A stretch of 33,239 nucleotides of DNA from Prevotella sp. (lineage in GTDB: Bacteria; Bacteroidota; Bacteroidia; Bacteroidales; Dysgonomonadaceae): positions 1 through 33,239 of the forward strand of contig JAITVV010000055.1 in assembly GCA_031285625.1 (NCBI GenBank), given 5' to 3'. Every line of letters starts with the position of its first letter. Within the stretch, counting starts at the first letter, position 1. The notes under the pieces were generated by a model. The model had not been told where the DNA came from. It was given only the letters and a program-made list of their open reading frames with translations, and did no database searches. This document shows positions 1,451 to 31,357 of the stretch, piece after piece. The position numbers and the translations under genes were made by a program.

Positions 1451-2593
1451 TTATTCCTTTTTTAATACAGAAGAGCTGGAGGATTCTATTTTTTCTTCAA
1501 GGATTTGGATAATCGCATTTTTTAGGTCATCATATTTAAAATCTTCTTTAAAGCCAATGCCGAAAGTTGAATGAGTGTCACCTTTAGTCATGCCTAGCAG
1601 ATATGTAATACCATCCTGTGCAATCGCTACAGGCGAATATTCTGTTTGTATCCTGTATTCTATCTCATTGTCTTTATTTACAATATAAAACAGATGTTTA
1701 TAAAATATGGAGTCTTTGGGGCCAGTTTCAAATCTCTCAAATACTTGCACCAGTTTATCATTCCAAGTAAACTGATCGAAGCAAAACATATCTTCCATAT
1801 TTTTATTCAGCAGTCCCTGTTTATGGGCTTCATATAATTTATCCTTATAGGGTTGGGCTTTTTCGTAATCTTTACGATGATAGTATATTTGTATAAGTTT
1901 TGCATATACATGATAGTCATTTGGAGCTAGTTGCAATATCTCTATAAATATTGGCTCGGCTTTATCATAATTTTATTTTAGTGATTCCAGCAGTCCTATA
2001 TTAAATAAAGTATTAATGTAATAATAGGAGTCATACGAGATATTTGATTTTGTAGTGTAAAAAGCTTGCAGAGCACTGTCATAGTCACCTATATCATAAT
2101 ATATCTGTCCTACCATATAAAATGGCCTTCCATCTGTTACATCATTTTGTTCAGTTGCCTTTTTGTAATATTCGATAGCCAGATCATATTTTTTAAGATT
2201 ATAATATGAATCACCTGTTCCCGTGTATGATTGTGACTTATCAGGATTGAGTTCTATTGCTTTTTTGAAGTGTACTATAGCTTCTTCATATTTTTGCATA
2301 TAATTTAATGTAGAGGCTTTTATGTGATACGGAGCAGGATCGTTTGGGTCTTTTTTTATCGAGAGGTCCATTATTTTCAAACAGTTTGTATCATCTCCGG
2401 TCATATAATATGCAAGGCCAATATAATACAATGATTTTGCAGAGTAATCTGTATAATCTTTAGTGTAATTTTCTAGTATTCTACTATATTGGTCACTTTC
2501 TGATAATAATTTTAGCTCTTCAGAAATATCAGTTTGTGCTGAAAGGGAAAAACTACAAAAAGATATAATGATAAGGGATATAAGCTTTTTCAT
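1451..2593 (-). pseudogene. TPR-repeat exported protein, split by an in-frame TAA
   Basis: Two open stretches, 1973-2593 (206 codons) and 1451-1936, lie in exactly the same reading frame. They are separated only by a TAA codon at 1973-1975. Reading through it gives LLESLK-stop-NYDKAEPIFIEILQLAP, which is continuous TPR-like sequence, so this was one gene of about 380 codons. The start has a signal peptide (MKKLISLIIISFCSFSLSAQ). Residues 60-190 are tandem tetratricopeptide repeats, for example DPNDPAPYHIKASTLNYMQKYEEA-type helices. The C-terminal part holds one more repeat and an unrecognised domain. It is probably a periplasmic or surface scaffold; the partner is unknown. The defect is a nonsense point mutation, a sequencing error or, less likely, readthrough. 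The first 206 residues could still make a secreted short TPR protein. Confidence 0.75.
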
Positions 2594-2713
2594 AGCAGTA
2601 TTTTTTGATTGTGGATATCCAAATGCAATGTAGTATAAGTTTCTAAATTGAACAAGAATTTTAGATGTTTCCTTTTTCTGATATTCAATGTCGTTAAAAT
2701 CACTTTTTATAAG

Positions 2714-2721
2714 TATTTTTG
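2714..2721 (+). promoter_or_regulatory. candidate -7 box for nadABC
   Basis: TATTTTTG matches the Bacteroidota -7 consensus TAnnTTTG, about 43 bp before the nadA start. No clear -33 TTTG is visible at the expected distance. The 170-bp gap 2594-2763 is otherwise AT-rich and must also hold the divergent promoter of the TPR gene. Confidence 0.35.
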
Positions 2722-2763
2722 CTGTGAAATAGCTATTTGTAGTTTTATTTTACTTATATTTTT

Positions 2764-3768
2764 ATGACAATGTTAGAAAAAGCTGTTGCAGCACTATCAA
2801 CTAAAGGCTACCTGAATTTGGAAATACCTAAAGGGATAAATCTTATTGAAGAAATTAATAAGATGCGTAAGGAAAAGAATGCAATCATACTGGCGCATTA
2901 TTACCAAACAGGCGACATACAGGATATCGCCGACTTTTTAGGTGATAGTTTACAACTGGCCCGTGCTGCAGAAAAAACGAATGCTGACATGATCGTTTTT
3001 TGTGGAGTTCATTTTATGGCGGAAACAGCAAAGATACTTAATCCGACTAAGAAAGTCGTTTTACCGGATTTATTAGCAGGATGTTCATTGGCCGATTCTT
3101 GTTCTGGGGAAGGTCTTCGCGATATGAAGAAAAAATATCCCAATGCGATTGTAGTAAGTTATATTAATTGTGATTCAAGTGTAAAGGCTGAGAGCGATAT
3201 TATTGTAACGTCATCCAATGCCGAACATATAATCAATTCATTACCAAAAGAGCAGGAAATAATATTTGCACCGGATAGAAATCTGGGTAGGTATATCAAT
3301 CAGGTAACCGGACGTAATATGATACTTTGGGATGGAGCATGTATCGTACATGAGGCTTTTTCTTTAGAACGTATTGCACAACAGATGCTTGATCACCCTA
3401 AAGCTATGTTAATAGCACATCCGGAAGCACAAAAGCCTGTATTGCAGGTGGCGCATTATGTGGGTTCTACTGCTAATCTTCTGAATTATGTGGTAAATGA
3501 TGAAAATCAGGAATTTATAGTTGCTACAGAAGAAGGGATCTTACATGAAATGCGAAAACGTGCACCCAATAAAATATTAATTCCGGCATTGACTATAGAC
3601 GATACATGTAACTGTAGCGAATGTCATTTCATGAAACTAAACACAATGGAGAAGTTATATTTGTGTATGAAATATGAATTACCTGAAATCCTGATGGATG
3701 AAGATATCCGTGTAAAAGCTTTAAGACCCATCAATAAAATGTTGGAAATGTCGAAGGCAATAAAATAA
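2764..3768 (+). CDS. nadA: quinolinate synthase NadA
   Basis: Condenses iminoaspartate with dihydroxyacetone phosphate to quinolinate, the second step of de novo NAD synthesis. It is a cytoplasmic [4Fe-4S] enzyme. The 334 residues show AHYYQTGDIQDIADFLGDSL near 44, CGVHFMAET near 80, DLLAGCSLADSC near 102 and the C-terminal CNCSECHFM cluster. By family alignment the iron-sulfur ligands are C107, C193 and C287. The length is normal for NadA. Two closely spaced ATGs (2764 and 2770) are both possible starts; there is no ribosome-binding sequence to decide. It is first in a nadA-nadB-nadC operon, 21 bp before nadB. Confidence 0.97.
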   Translation: MTMLEKAVAALSTKGYLNLEIPKGINLIEEINKMRKEKNAIILAHYYQTGDIQDIADFLGDSLQLARAAEKTNADMIVFCGVHFMAETAKILNPTKKVVLPDLLAGCSLADSCSGEGLRDMKKKYPNAIVVSYINCDSSVKAESDIIVTSSNAEHIINSLPKEQEIIFAPDRNLGRYINQVTGRNMILWDGACIVHEAFSLERIAQQMLDHPKAMLIAHPEAQKPVLQVAHYVGSTANLLNYVVNDENQEFIVATEEGILHEMRKRAPNKILIPALTIDDTCNCSECHFMKLNTMEKLYLCMKYELPEILMDEDIRVKALRPINKMLEMSKAIK

Positions 3769-10304: not shown

Positions 10305-10529
10305 TTAATAATAAATCTCTGATGCGTTAAAATTCAGTTCTACATACAGATTGTCATTAATATTAGAGAACAGAATTTTGTTTTCTCTAGATAACCAACC
10401 CAAAGCAAGAAGTATTAACGAGTCTTTATAACTTGTTAATTCTCCGATTTCTCTTAACGATAATCTTCCTTTCTCTGATAGGCATCGCCAGATTGTTCCG
10501 GCATTTATACCAATATCTTTCTTCAACAT
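10305..10529 (-). CDS. small winged helix-turn-helix protein (DUF2582/PF10771-like)
   Basis: A 74-aa protein of the form GINAGTIWRCLSEKG, SLREIGELTSYKDSLILLALGWLSRENKI. It matches the small winged-HTH family common in Bacteroidota, where the IWxxL and LALGWLxRExKI segments are conserved. Its target is unknown, and it may be a DNA- or protein-binding adaptor. It lies 52 bp behind the DUF6132-like gene and could be the last gene of the lipid cassette, although transcription this far is not shown. Confidence 0.75.
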   Translation of the reverse strand: MLKKDIGINAGTIWRCLSEKGRLSLREIGELTSYKDSLILLALGWLSRENKILFSNINDNLYVELNFNASEIYY

Positions 10530-10581: not shown

Positions 10582-10788
10582 TTATTCATTCTCTTTATGT
10601 AGCAAAGTAGCAAAAAGACCACCAAGTATTGCCCCAAGGCAACAATTTACCCAACATTCTGCAGATAATGGATATGTTCCCCAATAGCAGGTAAAATAAT
10701 ACCAATTAAGAAAACCTGCTATTGCACCAATTATTATAGCAATTAAAACATTTCTGTTATTTGAAATAAAAACTATAATATCTTTCAT
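10582..10788 (-). CDS. DUF6132-like small membrane protein
   Basis: A 68-aa protein with two predicted membrane helices (residues 13-30 and 45-63). Between them is a loop with C34 and the run YFTCYWGTYPLSAECWVNCC. The pattern helix, Y-x-x-C-x-x-G-x-x-P, glycine-rich second helix resembles the DUF6132 family. The role is unknown. It starts only 4 bp after the lpxC stop, so it is almost certainly translated from the same mRNA. Confidence 0.6.
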   Translation of the reverse strand: MKDIIVFISNNRNVLIAIIIGAIAGFLNWYYFTCYWGTYPLSAECWVNCCLGAILGGLFATLLHKENE

Positions 10789-10792
10789 CTTG

Positions 10793-11785
10793 TCAAATCA
10801 TTTGTGGATTCCAACCATAGTATCCATTTGAACCGGAGTCGGCTAATAATACAGGAGCTTCGACTTTTATCTTCGGATTTACAGCCTCGCGGATAGCCCT
10901 TGCAAACATATTATTAATTTTATGTCCGGGACAGTTGGCTACAACCTTTCCTTTAATGAACTTACCTACAAGAGCAAGATCCCCAATGATATCCAGTAAT
11001 TTATGTCTGGCTGGTTCGTTAGGGTAGAGTAGGGGCTTATTCATTATATAACCCAATTTTGAGGAATCTTTTCTCTTTACATGCATCATATCAGCAAGTT
11101 GGTCAAATTTTTCCTGTTCTATGGGTTTGTCATATATTACTATTGCGTTATCCAGATCGCCCCCTTTTACCAGATTATTGTTCAGTAGAGGTTCTATCTC
11201 TTTCACAAAAACAAATGTTCTGGCTGAAGCAAAGTCTCTTGTAAATTCGGATAAATTATTAAGAGTTGCATCCTGCCTTCTAAGAAAGGTTGAGTTGAAA
11301 GATATATGCGATTCTATACTGAAAGATTCATCCGGTATCAATACCATTGAAGATCCGGTTGTTTTGTCGATAACTTTTACTTTCTTACGCTTTATTGTAA
11401 TGTATTCTCTAACAGCATCTTGTTGTTGTGCTCCTACCTCTTTTATTTTACTCACATATAGGATAGAACTTCCATCCAGTATCGGAAATTCAGGACCGTT
11501 TACATCTATTAAGCAATTGTCTATCTCACATGCATATAATGCAGCCAAAGCATGTTCGACAGTACTTACATATACCCCATTAGCTGAGAGTACGGTTCCC
11601 CGCTGTGTTCCAGTTACATTTTCGGCTAAGGCGTCAATAATGGGTTGTCCGGATACATCTACTCTTCTGATTTTGTAACCATGATTTTCGGGAGCCGGAT
11701 TAAATTTTATAACAATGTCTAACCCTGTATGTAAGCCTTTACCCTCTAAGGTAAAACTGTTTTTTAAAGTTCGTTGATTAACCAT
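10793..11785 (-). CDS. lpxC: LpxC-type UDP-3-O-acyl-GlcNAc deacetylase without FabZ domain
   Basis: LpxC removes the acetyl group from UDP-3-O-acyl-N-acetylglucosamine, the committed step of lipid A synthesis, in the cytoplasm. The zinc and catalytic residues are present: E77-H78 in STVEHALAAL, H261 and D265 in RHKLLDIIGDLAL, and H288 in CPGHKINNMFARA. NGPEFPILDGSS near residue 96 and FARTF-like ASARTFVF near 186 also fit. At 330 aa it is a stand-alone LpxC. The housekeeping enzyme of Bacteroidota is usually an LpxC-FabZ fusion of about 460 aa and sits with lpxD and lpxA. Neither the fusion partner nor those neighbours are here, so this is probably a second, specialised copy. It lies 24 bp behind the FabH-like gene. 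Confidence 0.88.
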   Translation of the reverse strand: MVNQRTLKNSFTLEGKGLHTGLDIVIKFNPAPENHGYKIRRVDVSGQPIIDALAENVTGTQRGTVLSANGVYVSTVEHALAALYACEIDNCLIDVNGPEFPILDGSSILYVSKIKEVGAQQQDAVREYITIKRKKVKVIDKTTGSSMVLIPDESFSIESHISFNSTFLRRQDATLNNLSEFTRDFASARTFVFVKEIEPLLNNNLVKGGDLDNAIVIYDKPIEQEKFDQLADMMHVKRKDSSKLGYIMNKPLLYPNEPARHKLLDIIGDLALVGKFIKGKVVANCPGHKINNMFARAIREAVNPKIKVEAPVLLADSGSNGYYGWNPQMI

Positions 11786-11809
11786 AATAATCTTTATTTA
11801 ATTTATATT

Positions 11810-12757
11810 TCAGGGAATTTTTATTAAGCAGGAACCTGTAGAATATCCACCTCCAAAAACAGAGAGACATATCAGGTTGCCTGTTGTAAATATCTCAATA
11901 TTCTGGGCAAAAACCAGTAACGCGCTGACAGAACCGGTATTTCCTAATTCCTCGATATTAGATAATATTTTATTTTCAGTGATATTCAACTGTTTTACTA
12001 CATTTTTTAATATTCTCATATTTGCTTGGTGACCAATGAAATAGGATAAATCATCCAGCGAATATCCATTTATTTCCACAATGTCTTTAGTCCCTTGGGC
12101 GATATAATTACATGCATACATGAATACATCTCTACCATAAGGCATTTTTATTCCTTCATCTTTCGGTTTCAAAGAAACAGCTTCGGGCCCCATGCCTATA
12201 TGTCCCAGGCCTTGTGTTGTAATATCCACTACTTGTGGATCTTTATCGGAATAAGACTTATTGGAGAAGAAATATGCTGTGGCTCCATCTCCCCACAAAT
12301 GGCCGGACATACAATCTGTATCGTCAGAATATGTAGAATTACGGTCTGCGCATATCAATAACGCTTTTTGTGCTAACTCTGAATGGAAAAATGAATATAT
12401 GATTTCCATTGCATTGATAGCAGAAGAACAGGCCGATGATATAAGAAAAACTTTTGCATTACTTATGTTATGCTCCCGTTGAATATAATGTCCTGTAGTA
12501 CCTACTGTATCTGAAGGAGAATATGATGCAAAAACAATTAAGTCAATATCTTGTATACTATATGGTAAATTGGCTAATGCATTTTTTACAGCTTCGTTAC
12601 ACATATAATCCATTGATTCGTTAGCAGATGCTCTCGAGCGGGTTAAAATTCCTGTCCGTTGAGCGATCCAATCGCTTGTCAATCCATTCACTTCCGTAAA
12701 ATAGTCATTTGTGATTCTTGTTTCGGGAATATAATATCCAATTGAATTAATAAACAT
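11810..12757 (-). CDS. FabH-like 3-oxoacyl-ACP synthase III
   Basis: A 315-aa thiolase-fold condensing enzyme with the KAS III catalytic triad: C110 in ISSACSSAINA, H243 in GHQANMRIL and N273 in GNTGSVSA. The glycine-rich end GGGYSTGSCL is also present. Such enzymes join an acyl-CoA starter to malonyl-ACP, to begin fatty-acid chains or to make special acyl or polyketide products. The sequence around the active site (FLISSACSSA rather than the DI-xAAC-xG of housekeeping FabH) suggests a secondary paralogue with its own starter. It lies 24 bp before lpxC and 23 bp after the thioredoxin-like gene, so it likely supplies or alters acyl chains for the outer-membrane lipid made by this cassette (inference). 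Confidence 0.85.
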   Translation of the reverse strand: MFINSIGYYIPETRITNDYFTEVNGLTSDWIAQRTGILTRSRASANESMDYMCNEAVKNALANLPYSIQDIDLIVFASYSPSDTVGTTGHYIQREHNISNAKVFLISSACSSAINAMEIIYSFFHSELAQKALLICADRNSTYSDDTDCMSGHLWGDGATAYFFSNKSYSDKDPQVVDITTQGLGHIGMGPEAVSLKPKDEGIKMPYGRDVFMYACNYIAQGTKDIVEINGYSLDDLSYFIGHQANMRILKNVVKQLNITENKILSNIEELGNTGSVSALLVFAQNIEIFTTGNLICLSVFGGGYSTGSCLIKIP

Positions 12758-12780
12758 ACAGTGTGTTATTTTTACGGTTT

Positions 12781-13212
12781 TTATTTTGTTGCTCTTTTAT
12801 AAATAATTTCCAAGTTAGTGACCGGTACAACTCCCATAATCCGGTCTATTTCTTGTCCGTTTTTAAATAATAATGTACATGGGACGCCAGAAATATTATA
12901 CTTTTTATATATATCAGGATGCTCATTTACATTTACTCTGTAAAACTTTACATCGTCTCTCGATAGTTTGCTGATATTATGCATCATTTTGTTACATACT
13001 TCTGAATTTTCCTGATAAAATATAACAGAGATGATATCTGAAGATTCTATACCGGACATATCCTTCAATTCTTCAAAATGTATGTCTTCGCTCAGATTGT
13101 TAGAACTCCCGTTTACTGTAATAGGTCCCCATATATTGATTCCTAAAAACAATAAAGCCAATAAGAAGCAAAAATGCCATGTCTTGAATCGAAACTCTTT
13201 TAACTTTTTCAT
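12781..13212 (-). CDS. membrane-anchored thioredoxin-like protein with SxxC active site
   Basis: The 143-aa protein has an N-terminal membrane anchor (residues 12-29), then a periplasmic thioredoxin fold. The fold is recognisable from IISVIFYQENSEVCNKMM (residues 60-77), VKFYRVNVNEHPDIYKKY and NISGVPCTLLFKNGQEIDRI, with the cis-proline P111 in GVPC. Where thioredoxin has C-G-P-C, this protein has S70-E-V-C73, so the nucleophilic cysteine is replaced by serine. It is therefore unlikely to be a normal disulfide reductase. It may bind a partner, act as a chaperone or use the single thiol; C112 next to the cis-proline is a second thiol near the site. It lies 2 bp behind pldA. Confidence 0.72.
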   Translation of the reverse strand: MKKLKEFRFKTWHFCFLLALLFLGINIWGPITVNGSSNNLSEDIHFEELKDMSGIESSDIISVIFYQENSEVCNKMMHNISKLSRDDVKFYRVNVNEHPDIYKKYNISGVPCTLLFKNGQEIDRIMGVVPVTNLEIIYKRATK

Positions 13213-13214
13213 CT

Positions 13215-14114
13215 TTAAAAGAAATTATAGAAATCAGGTTTTATGCATATGCCTATTCTTACGTTCATGGCATACTTATCATAATCCAATAGACTCTCTC
13301 CATATCCTTGATAGTATCGGGCGAATAGATACTGATTAGATCTTTCAGACATTCTGAAGGCAGCCGTCAATGTAGTATTTACATTTCCCCATCCTTTTCT
13401 GGGATTGATATCTGCAGATAACCACCAACGGTGTTTGTCGCTTGTATAATTTACAGACACGAACCCTAAGCCTCTATAATCCAACAGGTCTTTATTATTC
13501 CCTCCGTCTACGTATGGAACCCAAACTTCTCCAGCAATATTAAATCTTGCATTGAAGTAATACTTCATGGATAGGCTCAAATAATTCCAACTTCGGGAGT
13601 CGTCTCCATCGCGTCCGTTTGATTCATGTTTTAATTGAACGAATGCCGCACCTACAACACGGTCCTTGTACAATATGTACTTACCTAATCCCAGTCCCGG
13701 ATTATAGTTTGTATCTTTAAACGGACTCGATTCGTCATAAATATTCCAGAACGATTTTTGAGTATATGTCAGATATGCAAATGTTTTGAATGGCAAAACA
13801 CTCTTTGTCAGTCTTTGTCTTATGCTTATCTGAAAGGATGCATCAGCAGTACTTCTGGTTATCTTTCTGTCAAGTGGAACTCCTGTAACAAAGTATGTGT
13901 CCCTGTATACGGCAAATGCTGGCATCCTATCTGCCATTTTTATAGCATCTCTTTCTGATATAACCAAATGTCTTGGTCTGAAGATACGCGGATCCTGCAT
14001 CGCACTGTCATATTGTTGACGGAGGCTATCATTATCTATATACATTAGATCAATCTGGGCAAATGCGGCTGATGATAGTACAGTAAATATTAAAAGTAAA
14101 TAGTTTCTCAACAT
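13215..14114 (-). CDS. pldA: outer-membrane phospholipase A (OMPLA/PldA)
   Basis: Outer-membrane barrel hydrolase that removes acyl chains from phospholipids misplaced in the outer leaflet. The 299-aa protein has a signal peptide ending SSAAFAQ. The active-site block QLKHESNGRDGDDSRSWN places H163, S165 and N177 with exactly the spacing of the His/Ser/Asn triad of E. coli OMPLA (H142, S144, N156). The C-terminal strands include YYQGYGESLLDYDKY, which matches the conserved SGYGESLIDY of OMPLA. The N-terminal 60 residues before the barrel are extra and unrecognised. In the cassette it lies 11 bp behind the 100-aa gene and 2 bp before the thioredoxin-like gene. Confidence 0.92.
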   Translation of the reverse strand: MLRNYLLLIFTVLSSAAFAQIDLMYIDNDSLRQQYDSAMQDPRIFRPRHLVISERDAIKMADRMPAFAVYRDTYFVTGVPLDRKITRSTADASFQISIRQRLTKSVLPFKTFAYLTYTQKSFWNIYDESSPFKDTNYNPGLGLGKYILYKDRVVGAAFVQLKHESNGRDGDDSRSWNYLSLSMKYYFNARFNIAGEVWVPYVDGGNNKDLLDYRGLGFVSVNYTSDKHRWWLSADINPRKGWGNVNTTLTAAFRMSERSNQYLFARYYQGYGESLLDYDKYAMNVRIGICIKPDFYNFF

Positions 14115-14125
14115 ATTTTTTTCGA

Positions 14126-14428
14126 TTATCCAAAAATGAATTGGTTTATAAATTTGTCATCGTTCAGCTCATCTCTGCATTTTGTTTTAATGCCTATTTT
14201 ACTGAGAAGATTTTTTAAATCATTGTTTATAGAGTCTGTATAGATTATACTAACTCTTTTCAGTGCCATTAATAAAGAAAAATAGTTATTTTCTGTATTA
14301 TCCAGTTTCAGGCTTTCAACGCCTTTTACTTTATCGTTTTCGAGTTCAAAAATATTAACTGTGGTATTTCCTTGTATATCTCTACTTAGATTTCCTTTTT
14401 GTGTGAGTATTGCAATTATTTCCGCCAT
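14126..14428 (-). CDS. conserved-looking 100-aa protein, function unknown
   Basis: Not recognised with certainty. The protein has an alternating strand/helix pattern: EIIAILTQKGNLSRDI, NIFELENDKVKGVESL, a variable middle, then LLMALKRVSIIYTDSINNDLKNLLSKIGIKTK. This layout resembles the NifX/NafY (dinitrogenase cofactor biosynthesis) ribonuclease-H-like fold, without any cysteine or cofactor-binding signature and with no nitrogenase genes nearby; the resemblance is weak. There is no signal peptide. It is the first gene after the tetR-type operator at 14475-14488 and is probably the first gene of the lipid cassette (11 bp before pldA). Confidence 0.6.
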   Translation of the reverse strand: MAEIIAILTQKGNLSRDIQGNTTVNIFELENDKVKGVESLKLDNTENNYFSLLMALKRVSIIYTDSINNDLKNLLSKIGIKTKCRDELNDDKFINQFIFG

Positions 14429-14474
14429 AATAGTTTTCGTGTTTTAAAAGTTAATACTCTAAATACCTAGTCAA

Positions 14475-14488
14475 TGAACAATCATTCA
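14475..14488. promoter_or_regulatory. candidate TetR operator 2 (before the cassette)
   Basis: TGAACAATCATTCA contains a TGAA/TTCA inverted repeat and differs in one base from the operator before tetR. It sits in the 79-bp gap between the tetR stop and the 100-aa gene, upstream of the cassette in its direction of transcription. Confidence 0.65.
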
Positions 14489-14507
14489 CTTTTTTTGTTT
14501 AAAAAAG

Positions 14508-15122
14508 TTATGCTTTTATCAAACTATACAAATAATCCATCACTTCTTTTCTACGTTCCATGTCCTGAATTACATTTATAGCAAATGCTTCATCAGTACA
14601 ATTCTTTTCCGAAGATTCTTTTATACTTGTATTATTAAAGATGATTGCCATGATCTCTGTATCAATATCCTCTCTGACTTCTCCTATTTTTATACTGTTA
14701 TTGATTGCATTTTTCCAATTGCCGATCAATTTACTGTTTATAACTCTAAATCGATCAATAAAGTTGGGGTAATGCTTTGCTGCCTGTATCATCAGAGCTG
14801 TATAGTTCAGAAAAAATGTATGCGTTACTCCAGCCCGCGTGAAGGCATTGAGTATCAATTTTTGTCGTCTATACATTATTTCAATATACTCTGCGAGCGT
14901 CCTGTCTTTTTTTATATCCTGTAATATTTTATTAAATAATCTGAAAAAATATTCGTCTATGACAGCATTGAATAATTCTTCTTTATTTTTAAAATATCGA
15001 TACATGGCGCCGCGAGACATATTCAGCTCTTCTTGCAATACAGATATAGAGGCACTATCATAGCCTTTGTTCATAAAAACATCAAAGGCCCGCCTTAATA
15101 TATATTCTCTACTGTACTTCAT
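14508..15122 (-). CDS. TetR-family transcriptional regulator
   Basis: The 204-aa protein has a typical TetR N-terminal DNA-binding domain: REYILRRAFDVFMNKGYDSAS, then the helix-turn-helix ISVLQEELNMSRGAMYRYFKNKEELFNAVI (about residues 24-55). The all-helical C-terminal domain from 60 on is variable and gives no clear ligand. Palindromic sites lie in front of its own gene (15143-15158) and in front of the downstream cassette (14475-14488). The simple model is autorepression plus control of the lipid genes, with a lipid or acyl-CoA as a likely but unproven inducer. Confidence 0.9.
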   Translation of the reverse strand: MKYSREYILRRAFDVFMNKGYDSASISVLQEELNMSRGAMYRYFKNKEELFNAVIDEYFFRLFNKILQDIKKDRTLAEYIEIMYRRQKLILNAFTRAGVTHTFFLNYTALMIQAAKHYPNFIDRFRVINSKLIGNWKNAINNSIKIGEVREDIDTEIMAIIFNNTSIKESSEKNCTDEAFAINVIQDMERRKEVMDYLYSLIKA

Positions 15123-15142: not shown

Positions 15143-15158
15143 GTGAACAATCGTTCAC
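15143..15158. promoter_or_regulatory. candidate TetR operator 1 (tetR promoter)
   Basis: GTGAACAATCGTTCAC is a perfect 6-4-6 inverted repeat 21 bp upstream of the tetR start. It lies just downstream of CACCTTTG (minus strand, 15163-15170), which is one base from the TAnnTTTG -7 box, so a bound repressor would cover the transcription start. Confidence 0.75.
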
Positions 15159-15230
15159 AATGCAAAGGTGAATAAATTAATTAGAACGAAAGCAAAGAAT
15201 TATGTTAAAAAATAATTAAAAAATTTATAT

Positions 15231-15269
15231 AAATAAAGCATGTCAATTATAAGTTGACATGCTTTATTT
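15231..15269 (-). terminator. terminator of the nrf/ccs operon
   Basis: A perfect 16-bp stem (15231-15246 with 15254-15269) and 7-nt loop, whose core is GCATGTCAA/TTGACATGC and whose outer part is AAATAAA/TTTATTT. It stands 22 bp after the ccsA stop codon, between ccsA and the tetR promoter region, and ends in an AT-rich tail on the minus strand. Confidence 0.85.
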
Positions 15270-15290
15270 GTTTGTTATAATATAACCCTT

Positions 15291-20898: not shown

Positions 20899-21600
20899 TT
20901 AGAAAAAATGCTTATTCAGAAATTCCATAAATCTGGCTTTGTAGGATTCTGATATAGGAATGTATTCTTTTCCAAAAACAATACAATTCCGTTCTATTGT
21001 CTTGATCTTATCCAGATTAACAATAAAAGAACGATGTACTCTCATAAAGATTTTACCCGGAAGCTTCTCTTCAAGTGATTGCATACTCATAAGGGAACTG
21101 ATTGGTTCTTTCTGACTTTCGAGATGAAATCTTACATAATCTTTCTGATTTTCAATATAAAGAATATTATCAAAATCAACTTTCTCCATCCTATAGCCCG
21201 ATTTAATGAAGATACTGGTTGTGGATTGGCCTGTATCCGTTAGTTTGAACCATTCCAATGCTTTATTTGCAGCTTGTAGGAAATCTGTATAGTTTATAGG
21301 TTTTAACAAATAATCTAATGCGTTGAGGCGAAAACTTTCTATTGCATACTGGTCATATGCAGTAGTGAAGATAATGCGTGTATTGGATGAGACCATTTTA
21401 GAGAATTCCAGACCATTTATCTGGGGCATGTTTATATCAAGAAATAAGACATCGATATGGTTATCATTGATTGTATTTATAGCCGATAAAGCATTATCAA
21501 ATGTTCCAGCCAATTCAAGAAAAGGAGTTTTCTGTACATAAGACTTCAATAAGTCTATAGCTAACGGTTCGTCATCTATGATTATACATTTTAATGTCAT
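20899..21600 (-). CDS. LytTR-family response regulator
   Basis: The 233-aa regulator has a receiver domain (residues 1-120) with the acidic pair D9-D10 (IIIDDEP), phosphoacceptor D55 in VLFLDINMP, T83 in FTTAYDQYA and K104 in LLKPINY. It is followed by a LytTR DNA-binding domain (about 133-233) with YIENQKDYVRFH, MRVHRSFIVNLDKIK and ISESYKARF. LytTR proteins bind pairs of 9-bp direct repeats about 12 bp apart. Its start overlaps the kinase stop by 4 bp (ATGA), so the two are translationally coupled. It is last of a seven-gene operon with the efflux pump, and a matching site lies in front of the first gene. Confidence 0.95.
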   Translation of the reverse strand: MTLKCIIIDDEPLAIDLLKSYVQKTPFLELAGTFDNALSAINTINDNHIDVLFLDINMPQINGLEFSKMVSSNTRIIFTTAYDQYAIESFRLNALDYLLKPINYTDFLQAANKALEWFKLTDTGQSTTSIFIKSGYRMEKVDFDNILYIENQKDYVRFHLESQKEPISSLMSMQSLEEKLPGKIFMRVHRSFIVNLDKIKTIERNCIVFGKEYIPISESYKARFMEFLNKHFF

Positions 21601-22673
21601 ACAGTTGCTTCGTTTTTATTAAAATCGATCCTAAGTAAAGTAAAAAAACTGTTTGTGCGTTTCTCTACTGTAAACTCATATTTATCCAGATATAATAATT
21701 CCAAGCGTTTAGATAGGTTTGCAAGACCTATCCCTGAATTACGTGCCTCCATATTTTCTTCTTTTTCAACCAGACTGTTTTCTACAGTGCATAACACACC
21801 TTTTCCGGGATCAACCAGTATAGTTATATCTATAAAGCTATTTTCACCATTATTTATACCATGTTTGAATGCATTTTCGATAAGTGTGATAAACATGAGG
21901 GATGCTATAAGATCTTTGCTCCCTGCATCATCTATAGTAATATTTATTTTGACAGAAGAGCTAAGGCGGAGCTTCATTAAGTCGATATAGTTTTTCGTAA
22001 ATTCGAGCTCTTTATCCATCGGGACAAACTTCTGATCATTATCATACATCACATAACGTAAAAGGTTGCTTAACCGATGTACTGCATTTTGCGCTCTATC
22101 CTGATCTATGGCTATTAGTGAATATATATTATTCAGTGTATTGAAAAGAAAGTGAGGGTTAAGCTGACTTCTTAAATTTCGCAGATCGGCTTCTAATTGT
22201 ACACTTTTTACCTTCTCGAAATTAATTGAATCCCTATACCATCGTATTGTCATTTTTATTGCAACACTGAGGCCAATAACAAAAATGATGGACATGTAAT
22301 CTATTAAAAACCGCATAAATGGAGGCCCTTTCGGATGTGGGCCATCCATTTTGAAACGTCTTTCGCGCATTTCCTGTATATTGGGGAGAATAGACATCAT
22401 CATTTCCGATATAACAGCTTGTAGAGCTACCAATCCGGCTATGAGAATTATATTTATAAGAATATAAAGTACTATTTTACGCGTAAATAAGAACTTCTCT
22501 ATCAAATAGAAATAATTAAAATAGAAAAGAATGGCAAATATAACTATGCGTATAAAATAATTATAAAAAGGTTTATTATCTAGTATACCTTCTCTTGACA
22601 TAAGATATGTGGGGACTATCAGTACAATAGCCCAAATAAGTATATGCGGAAATATTTTTATAAAGTTTTTCAT
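21597..22673 (-). CDS. LytS-type sensor histidine kinase
   Basis: The 358-aa protein has four membrane helices (about residues 10-27, 40-58, 66-88 and 122-142) with only short loops and no large sensor domain. The loop near 95-120 is rich in Met, Arg and Pro (KMDGPHPKGPP). Next comes the His_kinase domain with phosphoacceptor H174 in LRSQLNPHFLFNTLNN. The ATPase domain has the N-box ENAFKHGI (266-273) and G-box NSGIGLANLSKRL (312-324). It pairs with the LytTR regulator it overlaps. The stimulus is probably sensed within or near the membrane and is likely linked to the MacB permease one base upstream. Confidence 0.93.
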   Translation of the reverse strand: MKNFIKIFPHILIWAIVLIVPTYLMSREGILDNKPFYNYFIRIVIFAILFYFNYFYLIEKFLFTRKIVLYILINIILIAGLVALQAVISEMMMSILPNIQEMRERRFKMDGPHPKGPPFMRFLIDYMSIIFVIGLSVAIKMTIRWYRDSINFEKVKSVQLEADLRNLRSQLNPHFLFNTLNNIYSLIAIDQDRAQNAVHRLSNLLRYVMYDNDQKFVPMDKELEFTKNYIDLMKLRLSSSVKINITIDDAGSKDLIASLMFITLIENAFKHGINNGENSFIDITILVDPGKGVLCTVENSLVEKEENMEARNSGIGLANLSKRLELLYLDKYEFTVEKRTNSFFTLLRIDFNKNEATV

Positions 22674-22674
22674 C

Positions 22675-23895
22675 TTATTCGTATCTGAGGGCCTCTATAG
22701 GGTCGAGGTTCGACGCCTTTTTAGCAGGGTACCATCCGAAAAATATACCTGTGGCCGTACATACAATAAAAGACAAAGCTATAGTATAAACTTGAATATC
22801 TATAGGCCAAGCCAAAATATTTTTTACAATATATGCACTGCTAATGCCTAAAATTACGCCAATAATACCTCCTGTAATACTCAGGATAATAGCTTCTATA
22901 AGGAATTGCATAAGTATATCCACGCCTTTGGCTCCGATAGACATGCGCAGGCCGATCTCGCGTGTACGTTCGGTAACTGATACATACATGATATTCATAA
23001 TCCCTATACCTCCAACAAATAAAGATATGCCAGCAATACATGCAAGAAGAATAGTCATCATATCCGTTGTGGAGCTCATCATCGATATCAACTCTTTTTG
23101 CGAACGAACATTAAAATCGTCTTCATCATTAGGCCCTATCTTATGACGTTGCCGAAGGATATTTTCTATGCTGGTTATAGCATCTTCGGTAGCATCTTCG
23201 CTTACTGCTGATGCTGATATCGATTGAATATAAGTTATTGCCAGTATACGCTTCTGCACTGTTGTATAAGGTGCTATTATCAGGTCATCCTGGTCCATTC
23301 CCATTGTGTTGTCACCCTTTGATTCCAGTACACCGATTACCTTAAACGGTATTTTGTTGAAACGAATAGTTTGCCCGATAGGGTCTTCTCCGTTTGTAAA
23401 GAGATTGTCTACCACTGTTTGTCCGATAACACATACTTTTGCTGAAGTTTTAACTTCTGCTTCTGTAAACATTTCTCCTTGCGCTATCGCATATTTTCGT
23501 ATTTCGAGATATGATGGATTAACTCCATATACGGAAGTGGGTGAATTATTTGCTCCAAATATGACTTGTCCCGATGATTGTACTTCAGGCGAAGCAACAG
23601 TTATATATTCAGCTTGTTCTATAATAGCTTCATAGTCCTCAAGCTTAAGTGTCTGCATGCTGGATGCACTTTGGCGCACACCTCCAAACTGACCTGTTCC
23701 GGGACGGATATTGATCATATTCGAACCCATAGTGGATATCTGGTCTTGGATGCTCTTTTTCGATCCCTGCCCGATAGCCAACATTGTAATAACAGCAGCA
23801 ACACCAATAATAATACCCAGCATGGTAAGAAATCCTCTGAATTTATTACCACTTAATGCCCGCAGTGCTATTTTGAATAAGTTTACTATATTCAT
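22675..23895 (-). CDS. macB: MacB-type ABC transporter permease
   Basis: The 406-aa permease of a mechanotransmission-type (type VII) ABC transporter. It has an N-terminal helix (residues 18-40), a periplasmic MacB_PCD domain (about 45-245, with GANNSPTSVYGVNPSYLEIRKY and VCVIGQTVVDNLF), then three helices of the FtsX domain, including GGIGIMNIMYVSVTERTREIGLRMSIGAK and the C-terminal WYPAKKASNLDPIEALRYE. In E. coli MacB the ATPase and permease are fused; here they are separate genes 2 bp apart. Such pumps push substrates from the periplasm through MacA and TolC. Substrates could be peptides, antibiotics or siderophores; none can be chosen from sequence. Confidence 0.92.
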   Translation of the reverse strand: MNIVNLFKIALRALSGNKFRGFLTMLGIIIGVAAVITMLAIGQGSKKSIQDQISTMGSNMINIRPGTGQFGGVRQSASSMQTLKLEDYEAIIEQAEYITVASPEVQSSGQVIFGANNSPTSVYGVNPSYLEIRKYAIAQGEMFTEAEVKTSAKVCVIGQTVVDNLFTNGEDPIGQTIRFNKIPFKVIGVLESKGDNTMGMDQDDLIIAPYTTVQKRILAITYIQSISASAVSEDATEDAITSIENILRQRHKIGPNDEDDFNVRSQKELISMMSSTTDMMTILLACIAGISLFVGGIGIMNIMYVSVTERTREIGLRMSIGAKGVDILMQFLIEAIILSITGGIIGVILGISSAYIVKNILAWPIDIQVYTIALSFIVCTATGIFFGWYPAKKASNLDPIEALRYE

Positions 23896-23897
23896 AA

Positions 23898-24638
23898 TTA
23901 TTCTTCCTTTGGTAATTTAGCCAAATAGTCTTTGGCCGACTGAATATTTGCATTTAGTGTATCTTCTTTGATCCGCCCGTCGCGAATAACGATATTGCGA
24001 CTGCTAAATGCTGATATCTCAGGATTGTGAGTGACGAAGATAATAGTGCGTCCTTCTTTATGAAGCCGTTGCATCAATGATAAGATTTCGAAAGATGTAC
24101 GTGTATCCAGATTACCGGTAGCTTCATCAGCCAGAATAATGACAGGCTCGTTTACTAAAGCCCTGGCAATAGCTACACGTTGCATCTGCCCGCCTGACAT
24201 TTGATTTGACTTATGATTCAACCTGTCACCCAAGCCAACGTCTTCCAGCGCTTTTATCGCTCTTTGATGCCGTTCTTTAGAAGAGACATCCGGATTGTAC
24301 ATCAATGGTAATTCTACATTCTCTACGGCTGTTGTTTTGGCTAATAGATTGTATGATTGAAAGATAAATCCTATTTTTCTATTGCGTAGAGTTGCCCTGT
24401 CATTCTTACCCATTTTCCTTACAGAGGTATTATCAAGATAATATTCTCCTTCGGTAGGGGTATCGAGACATCCCAGTATATTTAGTAATGTAGATTTTCC
24501 GGAACCGCTGGTACCCATAATGGTAACAAATTCTCCCTCGTGGATGCTGAAATCGACACCTCGTAGAGCATGAACAGTTTCATCACCAACTATATAATCG
24601 CGTTTCAGATTTTCTACCCTTATTATTTCCTTAACCAT
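23898..24638 (-). CDS. MacB-type ABC transporter ATPase (LolD/MacB group)
   Basis: The 246-aa nucleotide-binding protein energises the adjacent permease in the cytoplasm. Walker A is GTSGSGKST (42-50), the Q-loop FIFQSYNLL is near 91, the signature [15 protein letters not shown] is near 145, Walker [10 protein letters not shown] is followed by GNLD, and the switch histidine is in IIFVTHNPE. The motifs [19 protein letters not shown] and [16 protein letters not shown] place it in the MacB/LolD/FtsE group. A 107-bp gap with a long inverted repeat separates it from macA, while the permease follows after 2 bp. Confidence 0.95.
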
Positions 24639-24654
24639 GAAATTCTTCTTTGAT

Positions 24655-24742
24655 TCTTAGTCTTACAGGAAAATATATGATGTGCAGAGATATCCATAGA
24701 ACAAACTTATTAACCTATCAATATTTTCCTGAAGACATAAGA
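24655..24742 (-). repeat. long intercistronic inverted repeat between macA and the ATPase gene
   Basis: The arm at 24655-24676 pairs with 24721-24742. The inner 11 bp, CAGGAAAATAT (24666-24676) with ATATTTTCCTG (24721-24731), are perfect and the outer TCTTA-GTCTT part pairs with two small bulges. The loop is 44 nt. There is no T run after it, so it is not a simple terminator. It fills nearly the whole gap, ending 16 bp before the ATPase start. Confidence 0.7.
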
Positions 24743-24745
24743 TTT

Positions 24746-25966
24746 TTATTTCTTTTTGTTACCGCCCGGACGCTGTGGCATAAAAGGGCTTGATTCTCCG
24801 TTTGTTTTTTCTTCCGGCATAGCTCCGTTTGTTTTGGATGAAATACCTGTAACAACTTCTTCACCAATGTTAATACCATTTGTAACGGCTGTATTAATGC
24901 CATCTGTCATACCTACACTTATCAGCTTGGGAGAAATGGTATTGCCTGTTTTAATCCAGATAACCCTTTTGGTTTTATCTTTTACATCAGGATCTTTCGC
25001 AGGTGGTTCGGTTATGGTCAAATCTTTGATTCCTTTTAATATTTCGGGATCAGGATTGAATCTTAGAGCTTTTGACGGAACTAATAATACGTCTTTTTCT
25101 TCCATCGTGTATATATTTACACTGGCTGTAAGTCCGGGTTTAAGTTTCAGATCGGGGTTTGGCGCATCTATAACAACCTCATATGTTACAACATTCGATG
25201 TTGTTGTTGCTTCCAGGCGTACTTGTACAACTTTCCCATTGAACTGATCTTCAGGAAAAGCATCTACTGTAAATGATACACGCTGGCCCTCTTTTACGCC
25301 ACCTATATCAGCCTCATCTACGTTTGCAATCACACGCATTTTAGTCAAATCGTTTGCTATTGTAAACAGGGTAGGAGTACTGAATGATGCTGCAACGGTT
25401 TGTCCTTCTTCTACAGCTCTGGATACAACAACTCCGTCTATTGTAGAGGTAATGGTTGCATATCCCAGATTAGTCTGAGCTTTTAATACAGTAGCTTTAG
25501 ATGATGTAACAGCCAGTTGAGCCGTTTTATATGTAGATTCTGCATTTTCCCAGTCCACTTTACTAATGGCTTGTTTTTCCCAAAGCCCTTTTTGCCTGTC
25601 ATAATTTAGTTTTTGTAAATCGAGTTCTACTTGCCTTGTTTGTAAATTAGCATTTGCATTTTCCAGTTCAGAAGCAAGCAGCCTCTTGTCTAGTTCGGCA
25701 AGTATTTGTCCGGCTTTTACTTCCGAATTATAGTCGACATATATCTTGGATATAACTCCTGATACTTGTGTACCTACTTCAACGAGTGTAATAGGTTCTA
25801 TTGTTCCTGTAGCTGTTACAGCTGTAGACAAGTCACCTTTCTCTATTTTAGCCGTAGTAAGTGCTATGGTTGTACTTTTAGAGCCGGGTAGTAAGAAGTA
25901 TACAATGAGTGCTATGATAAGCATACTTGCTGTAATAATCAGATATCTCTTTAGTTTTTTATTCAT
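24746..25966 (-). CDS. macA: MacA/HlyD-type periplasmic adaptor
   Basis: The 406-aa membrane-fusion protein links the inner-membrane pump to TolC. It has an N-terminal membrane anchor (residues 8-27) and a first half of a lipoyl domain (VEVGTQVSGVISKIYVDYN). A long coiled-coil hairpin (about 90-165, with LANANLQTRQVELDLQKLNYDRQ-like heptads and KVDWENAESTYKTAQ) follows, then the second lipoyl half (ATITSTIDGVVVSRAVEEGQTV), a beta-barrel domain (IANVDEADIGGVKEGQRVSF) and a membrane-proximal domain. The C-terminus is basic. It is 11 bp behind the TolC gene. Confidence 0.92.
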   Translation of the reverse strand: MNKKLKRYLIITASMLIIALIVYFLLPGSKSTTIALTTAKIEKGDLSTAVTATGTIEPITLVEVGTQVSGVISKIYVDYNSEVKAGQILAELDKRLLASELENANANLQTRQVELDLQKLNYDRQKGLWEKQAISKVDWENAESTYKTAQLAVTSSKATVLKAQTNLGYATITSTIDGVVVSRAVEEGQTVAASFSTPTLFTIANDLTKMRVIANVDEADIGGVKEGQRVSFTVDAFPEDQFNGKVVQVRLEATTTSNVVTYEVVIDAPNPDLKLKPGLTASVNIYTMEEKDVLLVPSKALRFNPDPEILKGIKDLTITEPPAKDPDVKDKTKRVIWIKTGNTISPKLISVGMTDGINTAVTNGINIGEEVVTGISSKTNGAMPEEKTNGESSPFMPQRPGGNKKK

Positions 25967-25977
25967 TTCTCTTTTTC

Positions 25978-27312
25978 TTATAGTGTGATTTCCTGCCCCT
26001 GATAAAAGTTTAATAATTTCAGGCTTAATAATGCTGTATATTTGGCTTGTAACAATGATTGCAATGCATTTGCGTAGTTGTTCTTTTCGGTGGTCAGCTC
26101 TACTGTGTTGCGCATACCTAGTGAATACTGTTCCTGTACCAGTTCGTAGCTCAGCTCAGCTGAATTAACCTGATCTTTTGCTGCCCTGTATTTACTTTGT
26201 CCTGATATTGCATCTTGATAAAGGTTTTCGATCGTCTTAAGCAGAGTTTTTTCTGTATCCATCAGGTTCAATTCGGCATTTTGTATTTCCAGATTTGCTT
26301 TCTTTACATTCGAACTGTTTTGTTTATTATCAAAGATTGGGATACTGACTGTTACTCCAATAGTCTGATTGAAATTCCGTCCTATTTGTGTGGCAAAGGA
26401 TGGTGAATTATTGAATATATTCCCCGTACCAATACTACCGCTAAGGGATACTGTCGGTAAATATCCGGCTTTAGCAGATGCTTTACTTAAGTTAGCTAAT
26501 TGAATGTTTACCTTGCTGTTTGCTACTTCCGGCATTATAACCAATGCCCTTTTATATACTTCATATTTTGAAGGAATAAAAAGGAGGACATCCTCATCAT
26601 TTATCTCAGGAAACTCAATATCTATCTCTTCATCATATTCCAGTTCCAGTAACTGTTTCAATTGAAGTTTATAAGTCTCAAATGAATTTTGCGCTTGTAC
26701 CAGATTATATTTATCAGCACTGTATTGGGCTTCTACCTGGGCATATTCACTACGGGTAATGCTTCCCGCATCCAAAAAATCCTTCGTTTGTTTTAACTGT
26801 GCTTCATCTGTAGCAACGATATTCTCATTATTCTTTATAGATTCTTTGCTGTACAATATCTGCAAATAGGCTTGGGTAATAGCTATTTCCATTTCATTCT
26901 GAATATTTTCCGTATTCAGATCCTGAGCTTCCTTCTGTAACTGAGCTTGTTTTATATCATTCCTATTTTTCCCTCCATTGTATAATGTCCAGTTTGCACT
27001 CAGAGTGTATTGCCCATTAAACAGGCCTTCGTAACGATAATCTCCGTTTCCGTCCGGTGATTGCGAATTAGTATACCGTTGCGATACACTTCCACTTAAA
27101 CTGGGGAATAGGGCAGCCTTAGATTGGGAGATATCCACACTATAGCTCTCGGCTGATATATTGGACTTTTTTACCTGAATATTCTCTTGTCGGGCATAGT
27201 TGATACATTCTCTCAGTGTCCATTTTTTCTGAGAGAAAGCAGTAACCGGCAAGAGTAATCCGGTTACTGCCATTACTAAACCTAACAAACTTTTAGTAAA
27301 ATAAATGCTCAT
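25978..27312 (-). CDS. TolC-family outer-membrane channel
   Basis: The 444-aa protein is the outer-membrane exit duct of the efflux system. It has a signal peptide ending PVTAFS and two OEP repeats, each with long helical coiled coils: WTLRECINYARQENIQVKKS opens the first, and the second begins near VYKRALVIMPEVANSKVNIQLANL (about residue 255). Barrel strands include GSVSQRYTNSQ and TIGVTVSIPIFDN. It ends with the YANALQSLLQAKYTALLSLKLLNFY helix typical of the family. It lies 15 bp behind the LTxxQ-like gene and 11 bp before macA. Confidence 0.93.
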   Translation of the reverse strand: MSIYFTKSLLGLVMAVTGLLLPVTAFSQKKWTLRECINYARQENIQVKKSNISAESYSVDISQSKAALFPSLSGSVSQRYTNSQSPDGNGDYRYEGLFNGQYTLSANWTLYNGGKNRNDIKQAQLQKEAQDLNTENIQNEMEIAITQAYLQILYSKESIKNNENIVATDEAQLKQTKDFLDAGSITRSEYAQVEAQYSADKYNLVQAQNSFETYKLQLKQLLELEYDEEIDIEFPEINDEDVLLFIPSKYEVYKRALVIMPEVANSKVNIQLANLSKASAKAGYLPTVSLSGSIGTGNIFNNSPSFATQIGRNFNQTIGVTVSIPIFDNKQNSSNVKKANLEIQNAELNLMDTEKTLLKTIENLYQDAISGQSKYRAAKDQVNSAELSYELVQEQYSLGMRNTVELTTEKNNYANALQSLLQAKYTALLSLKLLNFYQGQEITL

Positions 27313-28042: not shown

Positions 28043-28128
28043 CAAATCACTTAACCAAAAAGAGGTATTTTCTTTATTCAACCTTATCAGTTCTGTAGTT
28101 TCTCTGTAACAAAATTGTAAGTGATTTG
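28043..28128. repeat. spaced inverted repeat before the TonB-dependent receptor
   Basis: CAAATCACTTA (28043-28053) and TAAGTGATTTG (28118-28128) are a perfect 11-bp inverted repeat, 64 bp apart, in the divergent intergenic region. It could be a pair of regulator sites or the stem of a leader RNA. Confidence 0.5.
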
Positions 28129-28171
28129 CATTGTAGAAATTCAAATCAAAATGTGTAAGACAAACTATTCG

Positions 28172-30240: not shown

Positions 30241-30255
30241 ATAGATAGCAAAAAT

Positions 30256-30327
30256 ATAAGCTATAAGTTTTAGTTAATTTTGGTAATGGAGATTACTTAC
30301 TTATTAACTTGAAACAATATAGCTTAT
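30256..30327 (+). repeat. 72-nt imperfect palindrome covering the transposase start codon
   Basis: ATAAGCTATA (30256-30265) pairs with TATAGCTTAT (30318-30327), GTTT (30267-30270) with AAAC (30312-30315), AGTTAAT (30272-30278) with ATTAACT (30303-30309) and GTAAT (30283-30287) with ATTAC (30292-30296) around a GGAG tip. That is 26 pairs in register. The ATG at 30326 lies in the closing stem. Confidence 0.8.
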
Positions 30328-30742
30328 GAAACAAAGGAAGGAATTAGATTTCAAAGGACAAAATATCTATGTGGGGATAGATGTTCATTTGAAGAGTTGG
30401 TCGGTAACAGTTTTGTCAGAGACCTCGGTAATGAAGAAGTTTAGTCAAAGTCCTGAGCCGGAAGCATTGTATAAGTTTTTAATAACGAATTACCCGGGAG
30501 CGGATTATCACTCGGTATATGAGGCTGGATTTTGCGGGTTCTGGATACATGAAAGACTGACAGGATTGGGGATTAACAATATCGTAGTGAATCCGGCTGA
30601 TGTGCCGACCAAGAGCAGTGAAAAGTTGCGAAAGACCGATTCCATAGACAGTGGTAAACTGGCGCGAAGCCTGCGGGCTAAAGAACTGAAAGGGATTTAT
30701 ACGCCGGACGGTATATCATTGGAAATGCGCTCTACTATATAA
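30326..30742 (+). pseudogene. IS110/IS1111-family transposase, 5' part (element 1)
   Basis: This is the N-terminal RuvC-like DEDD domain of an IS110-family recombinase. The four acidic residues are D19 (VGIDVHLKSWSV), E66 (VYEAGFCGFW), D105 and D108 (KTDSIDSGKLA). The true coding part ends at about 30733 in the codons for SLEMRS; the last two codons and the stop belong to the inserted element 2. The other part is at 32413-33081. Joining the two across the insert restores ATG-CGC-TCT-TTG-ATA-AGA, reading MRSLIR, with no codon lost. Confidence 0.88.
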
Positions 30743-31120
30743 CTTAAATTGAGTATTCATTGTTTATTCTTTTGTAATATATTGTAATACAAGCTCTTTT
30801 ATGTATTGGCTTAAAAATTCAAATTAAGTGATCTCAGTTTTAAGTCTTTTGAGCAGTTCTTCCAGATGGGCAATCTTCTTTCGCTGTACGATAGATTTAT
30901 ATTCGAGATTGTCCAATGGTTTGTACTGCTTACCGGAAGAGACCATTTCATAGTAGATGATGGCCAGTTTACGGGCTGATGCTACGATGGCGTACTTTTG
31001 TCCACCCTTTGCTTTCATTCGTCTGAAATAATCTCCGATCCACGATTTTGACCTGCACATGGTGTTGGCCGCAGTCCTGAAAGCTACTGCTGCTGCATTG
31101 GGTTTCTTTTTGAGCACTTG

Positions 31121-31150
31121 TGAGCTAATGAGCTAATGAGCTAATGAGCT
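31121..31150. repeat. 8-bp tandem repeat inside transposase 2
   Basis: There are three full copies of TGAGCTAA plus TGAGCT. Removing two copies (16 bp) restores the protein reading GGKLISSQVLKKK across the break, so the expansion is what shifted the frame. Confidence 0.85.
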
Positions 31151-31357
31151 TACCACCTGAAATTTTGTTGTTTGGGCAAAGGTTCAGCCAGGAAACGAAA
31201 TGGTTTCGCGAAGGCCATTTCGAGAGGTCGGTACCGGTTTCCGAGACTATTTCCAGCGCGGCGATCTCGCTTATTCCCGGAATGTCGATCACATCTACTC
31301 CAAGAATGGCATGGAGGTACTTTCTTATGTCCGCTTTAGGTTGCTTCCGTTTTTTTG

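Follow-up and report, generated by a model that had tools for sequence, protein, structure and literature searches.

Introduction

In Escherichia coli, the products of the phospholipase PldA act through LpxC to raise the synthesis of lipopolysaccharide (LPS) and can reduce that of phospholipid, according to the excerpted text of PMC13170283 on the PldA-FadD-LpxC feedback (May and Silhavy, as cited therein; Enverso and Trent 2026). FabZ and LpxA are described in the same excerpt as competitors for one substrate, 3-hydroxyacyl-acyl carrier protein (3-hydroxyacyl-ACP), and in LPS-short cells extra FabZ is harmful and reduced FabZ beneficial. Here, we analysed a stretch of 33,239 nucleotides (the window, i.e., contig JAITVV010000055.1 of assembly GCA_031285625.1, labelled Prevotella sp. 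and placed in the Dysgonomonadaceae), in which a pldA gene and a second lpxC gene without a FabZ half lie together in an operon-like block headed by a TetR-family repressor gene. Genus refers in the following to Dysgonomonas and family to the Dysgonomonadaceae, to which it belongs; L and G numbers are labels of loci and genomes. On the basis of sequence comparisons, we read the locus as a cassette for inducible outer-membrane repair, controlled by a repressor that is akin to the TetRs of multidrug efflux, a reading to which we give an even chance of being right.

The block resembles the E. coli feedback in that PldA would act on misplaced phospholipid, LPS synthesis would be raised via LpxC, and FabZ competes. 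The link in E. coli is, however, metabolic (fatty acids, lysophospholipids and LpxC stability, with an acyl-CoA signal that depends on FadD and control by LapB/YejM/FtsH), whereas in Dysgonomonas the pldA gene and a dedicated second lpxC share an operon-like block with a repressor gene. Compared with the bifunctional LpxC-FabZ (NF009667/PRK13188), the LpxC half is 60% identical, but the window copy lacks FabZ and lies outside the lpxD-lpxC-lpxA gene order. Outer-membrane phospholipase A (OMPLA, i.e., PldA) shares the HxSN and WN motifs with the window PldA, which differs in being a second copy within a regulated-looking block. The regulator is comparable to the MtrR/AcrR-type repressors of resistance-nodulation-division (RND) pumps, because its best NCBIfam match is MtrR and relatives with the same operator precede TolC, membrane fusion protein (MFP) and RND genes (L137, L146). 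Those repressors are linked to pumps, whereas the window TetR is linked to lipid enzymes, has no pump in its unit and, with 51.9 bits against the MtrR model NF051852 (cut-off 280), falls outside MtrR itself. A second 3-ketoacyl-ACP synthase III (KAS III) beside a housekeeping FabH is likewise known from another bacterium, where RsFabW accepts C2-C10 acyl-CoA (PMC4549310, in excerpt); the window KAS III, too, stands beside a housekeeping enzyme in its genome, and it keeps the Cys-His-Asn triad.

Searches of the open-access literature turned up no account of either the block or a second LpxC lacking FabZ; the phrase "second LpxC" in the excerpt of PMC11946689 refers to a second inhibitor and not to a gene copy. 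As far as we have seen, the enzymes are individually of known kinds, and the split LpxC paralog and the gene combination seem to be undescribed.

Results

Organization of the block

The block and its borders comprise the following features, in the direction of reading of the genes:

15229-15271, no strand: inverted repeat of 20 pairs between ccsA (named by eye) and tetR
15143-15158, no strand: candidate palindromic operator GTGAACAATCGTTCAC upstream of tetR
14508-15122, minus strand: tetR, TetR-family repressor of 204 amino acids (aa); TetR_N 2.1e-13 (Pfam), best NCBIfam match MtrR, far below its cut-off
14474-14489, no strand: candidate palindromic operator ATGAACAATCATTCAC inside the 79-bp gap ahead of the cassette
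14126-14428, minus strand: 100-aa protein with weak NCBIfam similarity to the C-terminus of MrpORP (3.5e-4)
13215-14114, minus strand: pldA, outer-membrane phospholipase A (PLA1 9.9e-41), the genome's second PldA copy
12781-13212, minus strand: thioredoxin-like gene, trx (Thioredoxin 3.7e-9), with SEVC in place of CxxC and an N-terminal hydrophobic stretch (by eye)
11810-12757, minus strand: KAS III (ACP_syn_III_C 1.5e-21), in a clade of its own, with 29% identity to the genome's other KAS III
10793-11785, minus strand: FabZ-less lpxC, 330 aa (LpxC 3.8e-79), paralog of the housekeeping LpxC-FabZ
10582-10788, minus strand: small DUF6132-like gene (21.3 bits, just below the Pfam cut-off), with hydrophobic stretches (by eye)
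10305-10529, minus strand: DUF2582 winged-helix gene, 52 bp downstream of the DUF6132-like gene, its membership of the unit uncertain

The gene list of the initial annotation was recovered in full: all open reading frames (ORFs) lie where it had placed them, all on the minus strand, and their families were retrieved by Pfam and NCBIfam. The gap between tetR and the ORF of the 100-aa protein is 79 bp, and the following gaps are 11, 2, 23, 24 and 4 bp. The inverted repeat is probably a terminator and the upstream boundary of the block, and inside the block only two short terminator-like matches, on the other strand and at chance level, were found. Sigma-70-type promoter matches were at chance level in a scan of the window (29 found versus 27.2 expected) and were not used.

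A second, FabZ-less LpxC in the Dysgonomonadaceae

The window LpxC belongs to the LpxC deacetylase family (266.4 bits against Pfam LpxC, cut-off 27). Against the bifunctional LpxC-FabZ model NF009667 it reaches 405.5 bits (cut-off 465) and is aligned only up to position 311 of the 464 in the profile; the FabZ half is thus absent. It is not the sole lpxC of its genome, a point on which the initial annotation had made its interpretation depend, because an LpxC-FabZ fusion (L108; frame of 466 aa, 461 aa as ORF; 60% identical to the window copy) is also present and lies between genes reading by eye as lpxD and lpxA.

FabZ-less LpxC genes, 41 in number (open frames of 315-379 aa, one of them partly masked; ORFs of 307-373 aa), occur in 35 of the 101 genomes of the family; partial matches in G004 and G119 were excluded from this count as contig-end fragments. 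A fused LpxC is present as well in 34 of these 35 genomes, the exception (G068) being a genome that is 62% complete. In a maximum-likelihood tree (L099 and L107 omitted), all 39 FabZ-less rows of the family form one clade (ultrafast bootstrap 100, Shimodaira-Hasegawa-like approximate likelihood ratio test 96.7), and in a quick tree (L099 omitted) a clade of 40 FabZ-less rows is sister to the family's 19 fused rows (fork support 88). This single clade, sister to the fused enzymes, suggests that the FabZ-less copies most likely go back to one duplication early in the history of the family, in which FabZ was lost. The columns of residues E77, H78, T190, H237, K238, D241 and H264 (Pseudomonas aeruginosa numbering), which we take to be the zinc-binding and catalytic residues of LpxC, are kept in 42 of the 43 FabZ-less sequences (41 from the family and two others); the remaining one, L107, is masked there.

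In the order outside the family, 124 of 126 genomes have an LpxC match and only one (G225) has two; its short LpxC was rejected as a cassette, since it stands in the order lpxD-lpxC-lpxA (by eye) on a 5.9-kb contig. The sole LpxC is of FabZ-less length in several genomes of the order (e.g., G037, G039, G044, G194, G212, G214 and G218), suggesting that the mark of the family is its second LpxC copy and not the absence of FabZ as such. Of the 118 genomes in the phylum sample, 90 matched LpxC at E<=1e-40, 28 being without a match at that cut-off, and no second genome with two LpxC was found: all but that of the window had one, with frames of at least 463 aa. Taken over the order and phylum samples, most of the LpxC are LpxC-FabZ fusions.

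Conservation of the cassette in Dysgonomonas

Conservation of gene order in relatives had been set beforehand as a test of the block, and the order tetR-pldA-trx-KAS III-lpxC-DUF6132 is indeed kept in 10 of the 25 genomes of the genus (several of them incomplete), with one locus each (window, L027, L028, L030-L035 and L040). Among these full cassettes, eight have the 100-aa gene, which is missing from L028 and L030, and seven have the DUF2582 gene. The flanking genes vary among species groups, which argues that the block has been retained as a unit. Compared with three relatives, the window cassette genes have ratios of nonsynonymous to synonymous change (pN/pS) of 0.10-0.44, synonymous sites being nearly saturated; together with the six-gene order, this indicates that the block is not a chance run of genes. 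A search for the KAS III covered 61 genomes (that of the window and 60 relatives), with neighbours read at 19 further loci, and recovered its clade (at least 49% identity) in 19 of the 61 genomes; the remaining matches had at most 40% identity, the highest of those being short fragments.

Reduced versions of the cassette also exist: L036 lacks PldA, the thioredoxin-like protein and the DUF6132-like protein, and L042 has only tetR, KAS III (2144-3076, with a changed active-site motif) and lpxC. The KAS III frame of L040 (7523-8462) is broken, and the adjoining lpxC is conserved there as it is in L042.

Modular neighbourhoods of the FabZ-less lpxC

The neighbours of all 41 FabZ-less lpxC loci, including the window, were read; a same-strand gene at a distance of up to 4 kb counted as a partner, as did a divergent AraC or TetR gene in that range. 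For each of the labels MFP, RND, TolC, histidine kinase, AraC, TetRb, P-II-like and patatin, one representative was checked against Pfam. The most frequent partners are a thioredoxin-like gene (26 loci) and a DUF6132-like gene (25), often in the arrangement Trx-LpxC-DUF6132, followed by TetRa (16), KAS III (14) and RND genes (13). A phospholipase is present at 16 loci (PldA at 14, patatin at two), the 100-aa protein at 11, a kinase at 10 and a recognised regulator of any kind at 29; a divergent AraC-type regulator adjoins five. The 13 loci with RND neighbours compare with 0.5 expected from the density of RND genes in the window genome, an excess that is no formal probability because the 41 loci are related. 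These neighbours occur in at least three separate groups of the tree (L029/L089/L090; L088; and a 12-row group holding L096-L107). In L029 the order is MFP-RND-TolC-Trx-kinase-KAS III-LpxC-(DUF6132)-patatin, with a patatin phospholipase where PldA is absent.

In L100 (6034-6348), and similarly in L096, L097, L103 and L105, the RND gene near the FabZ-less lpxC is followed by a P-II-like protein (97-104 aa).

The regulator and its candidate operators

The pattern RTGAA-N6-TTCAY precedes tetR in 15 of the 18 loci of the TetRa cluster by script (16 when L087, which has an over-long ORF start, is counted) and lies in the gap that follows tetR in 16 of the 18; a mononucleotide shuffle of the window gave 0.29 such sites per 33 kb. 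This conserved palindrome ahead of both tetR and the cassette supports the earlier view of the block as a regulated module. The stricter pattern RTGAAYNATNRTTCAY has five sites in the window genome versus one for the reversed control. The TGAAC half-site is confined to the two cassette sites, so the regulator looks local; the other three have TGAAT half-sites and, given the one site in the reversed control, were treated as chance and not as a wider regulon.

Searching 295 genomes of the order for relatives of the TetR gave eight matches at E<=1e-25, six of them outside the family, and five of these six lie just upstream of RND genes (G129, G362, G417, G396 and G487). The TetRs of G129 and G362 are 56% and 47% identical to that of the window and both loci retain the operators; in G129 the order is TetR-100-aa protein-TolC-MFP-RND. 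The window genome itself encodes a second 100-aa protein (52% identical), which is convergent to an AraC-MarR-MFP-RND-TolC block (MarR by eye; region 682-8613 of L135, G000:C92:33000-48000) and lacks the TetR, suggesting that the 100-aa protein is tied to an efflux locus independently of the TetR. The RND-linked relatives outside the family, the operators of G129 and G362 and this RND-adjacent second protein make it most likely, at the level of sequence, that the cassette regulator derives from pump repressors.

A block reading by eye as response regulator, histidine kinase, MacB-like ATP-binding cassette (ABC) pair, MFP and TolC lies at 20899-27312, some 6 kb upstream of tetR; the MFP, histidine kinase and response regulator of a similar block stand directly ahead of tetR in L028 and L030.

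The other proteins of the cassette

The window PldA is an OMPLA with a PLA1 domain and the His-Ser-Asn active site, by alignment to the solved enzyme, and the motifs HESN and SWN are present in 15 of 15 sequences; it is one of two PldA copies in the genome. The KAS III belongs to its family by its ACP_syn_III domains and Cys-His-Asn triad, and against the housekeeping FabH model TIGR00747 it scores 174.2 bits, below the cut-off of 292.1. In three other families, members of the same KAS III clade were seen beside a FabG-like reductase (L043, 4122-5831; L044, 6891-9329; L045, 6955-9336), with a separate TetR ahead of the pair in L044 and L045; the two genes form a possible regulated pair for fatty-acid initiation.

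The thioredoxin-like protein lacks the signature of redox-active thioredoxins, with SEVC in the window, CxxC in none of the 26 cluster members and SxxC at the site in 24 of 26 (as read from the sequences; a regular expression gave 25 including off-site matches), so an ordinary disulfide reductase is unlikely. The DUF6132-like proteins are near relatives only of PF19628, since they score below its cut-off of 23.2 bits (window, 21.3; L084, 22.0). For the 100-aa protein, a profile from an alignment of five sequences found nothing in the PDB (best E 0.53).

A Kdo/WaaP-family kinase gene precedes KAS III in six of the 10 full cassettes (L031-L035 and L040) and in the shortened L036; the kinases of L031 and L029 have Pfam scores of 25.9 and 21.2 bits (cut-off 21.3). 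The window cassette and the three cassettes closest to it lack this gene, and the single copy found in the window genome lies elsewhere and is 46% identical to the kinase of L031. The lipooligosaccharide cluster of Bacteroides thetaiotaomicron has two essential genes, one of them for a putative LPS kinase, according to the excerpt of PMC5850320.

Other features of the window

A TonB-receptor-like ORF (28121-30244) ends just before transposase-like ORFs near the contig end (30326-30742, plus strand; 31325-32248, minus strand; 32413-33081, plus strand), which are IS110-type by eye, and it may have been cut by an insertion in this region (28121-33081). No tRNA or Rfam match was found anywhere in the 33-kb window.

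Discussion

LpxC, KAS III and PldA of the cassette are second copies with their active-site residues kept, and the LpxC is without FabZ. This favours a repair cassette, which could work as follows. The TetR would bind both palindromes and be released by a lipophilic or membrane-active compound or by a freed fatty acid. PldA would then degrade phospholipid that has reached the outer leaflet, and the extra LpxC would raise the flux into lipid A; without a FabZ half, the dehydratase that competes for 3-hydroxyacyl-ACP would stay unraised and the ratio of LPS to phospholipid would thereby rise, whereas induction of a fused LpxC-FabZ would raise both sides and be less clean. The KAS III might supply acyl chains or recycle them, possibly from PldA products, which is conceivable by analogy with the use of acyl-CoA by RsFabW. 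The kinase of the relatives would act on the LPS core, and the thioredoxin-like and DUF6132-like proteins would be accessories. Since the same FabZ-less LpxC travels with an RND pump in sister cassettes, repair and efflux may be two arms of one response. The initial annotation had suggested that the module senses or repairs outer-leaflet asymmetry, which agrees with the genes present and with the way PldA and LpxC are linked in E. coli and is kept here as an interpretation.

A bolder and more tentative proposal, which we regard as possible but doubtful, is that the fused enzyme keeps the synthesis of LPS and phospholipid in step and that the inducible FabZ-less copy is a ratio switch tilting acyl flux to LPS, gained when the family split its LpxC-FabZ fusion through gene duplication. 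This switch would have been moved between operons and wired to efflux-type sensors and an outer-leaflet phospholipase, one kind of repressor controlling either the export of poisons or the rebuilding of the leaflet, depending on the lineage.

Several observations weigh against the interpretation as a repair cassette. The modules separate: a phospholipase is missing at 25 of the 41 FabZ-less lpxC loci and three have no partner at all within 4 kb (some contigs are short), and the RND-linked cassettes mostly carry regulators other than TetRa. Kinship of the regulator to pump repressors is looser in G417, G396 and G487, whose TetRs are 32-36% identical to that of the window and show no copy of its operator, and the sixth relative outside the family (G399) has no pump beside it and belongs to what reads by eye as a cluster of lipid or ketosynthase type. 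Moreover, the KAS III seems dispensable, given its broken frame in L040 and altered active-site motif in L042.

Alternatively, the cassette might raise or alter LPS for a growth phase or a host niche, unrelated to damage or toxins. AraC-type regulators often answer nutrients, and the divergent AraC-type neighbour of five of the 41 loci would agree with such a role, as would the lipid-synthesis gene content in general; the phospholipase and RND partners and the kinship of the TetR with pump-linked TetRs do not, and we consider this explanation unlikely, although it survives best among the alternatives. Slightly less probable again is a resistant-target cassette, in which a natural antibiotic acting on LpxC (and, in some species, on FabH) is met by insensitive second copies, with efflux in the sister cassettes. 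Two drug targets, LpxC and a FabH-like KAS III, are indeed duplicated, and both the RND genes beside 13 of the 41 lpxC loci and the pump-linked kin of the TetR are in line with this explanation. It leaves, however, the PldA or patatin, kinase, thioredoxin-like and DUF6132-like genes and the loss of FabZ unaccounted for, and the LpxC columns examined, which are those of the catalytic residues, are unchanged. The least probable alternative is a pathway for a different acylated amino-sugar lipid (an "alternative acylated lipid" in the initial annotation), made by LpxC and KAS III and tailored by PldA and the kinase, which is disfavoured because the genome has only one close LpxA, neither a second LPS acyltransferase nor another second LPS enzyme besides LpxC was recognised in the cassettes and the LpxC shares 60% identity with its housekeeping counterpart. 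In its favour are the several lipid enzymes present as second copies and the pairing of the KAS III clade with a FabG-like gene in three families apart from this one (L043, L044, L045).

To our knowledge, the balance of LPS and phospholipid has been much less studied in Bacteroidota than in E. coli. A naturally split, inducible-looking LpxC paralog offers a direct test of the role of the LpxC-FabZ fusion. If the interpretation as an inducible repair cassette is true, outer-membrane repair would be tied to efflux-type regulation in these bacteria, and the coupling of PldA to LpxC would lie in the linkage of their genes and in transcription. The problem for which E. coli uses lipid signals would thus have been solved a second time, independently.

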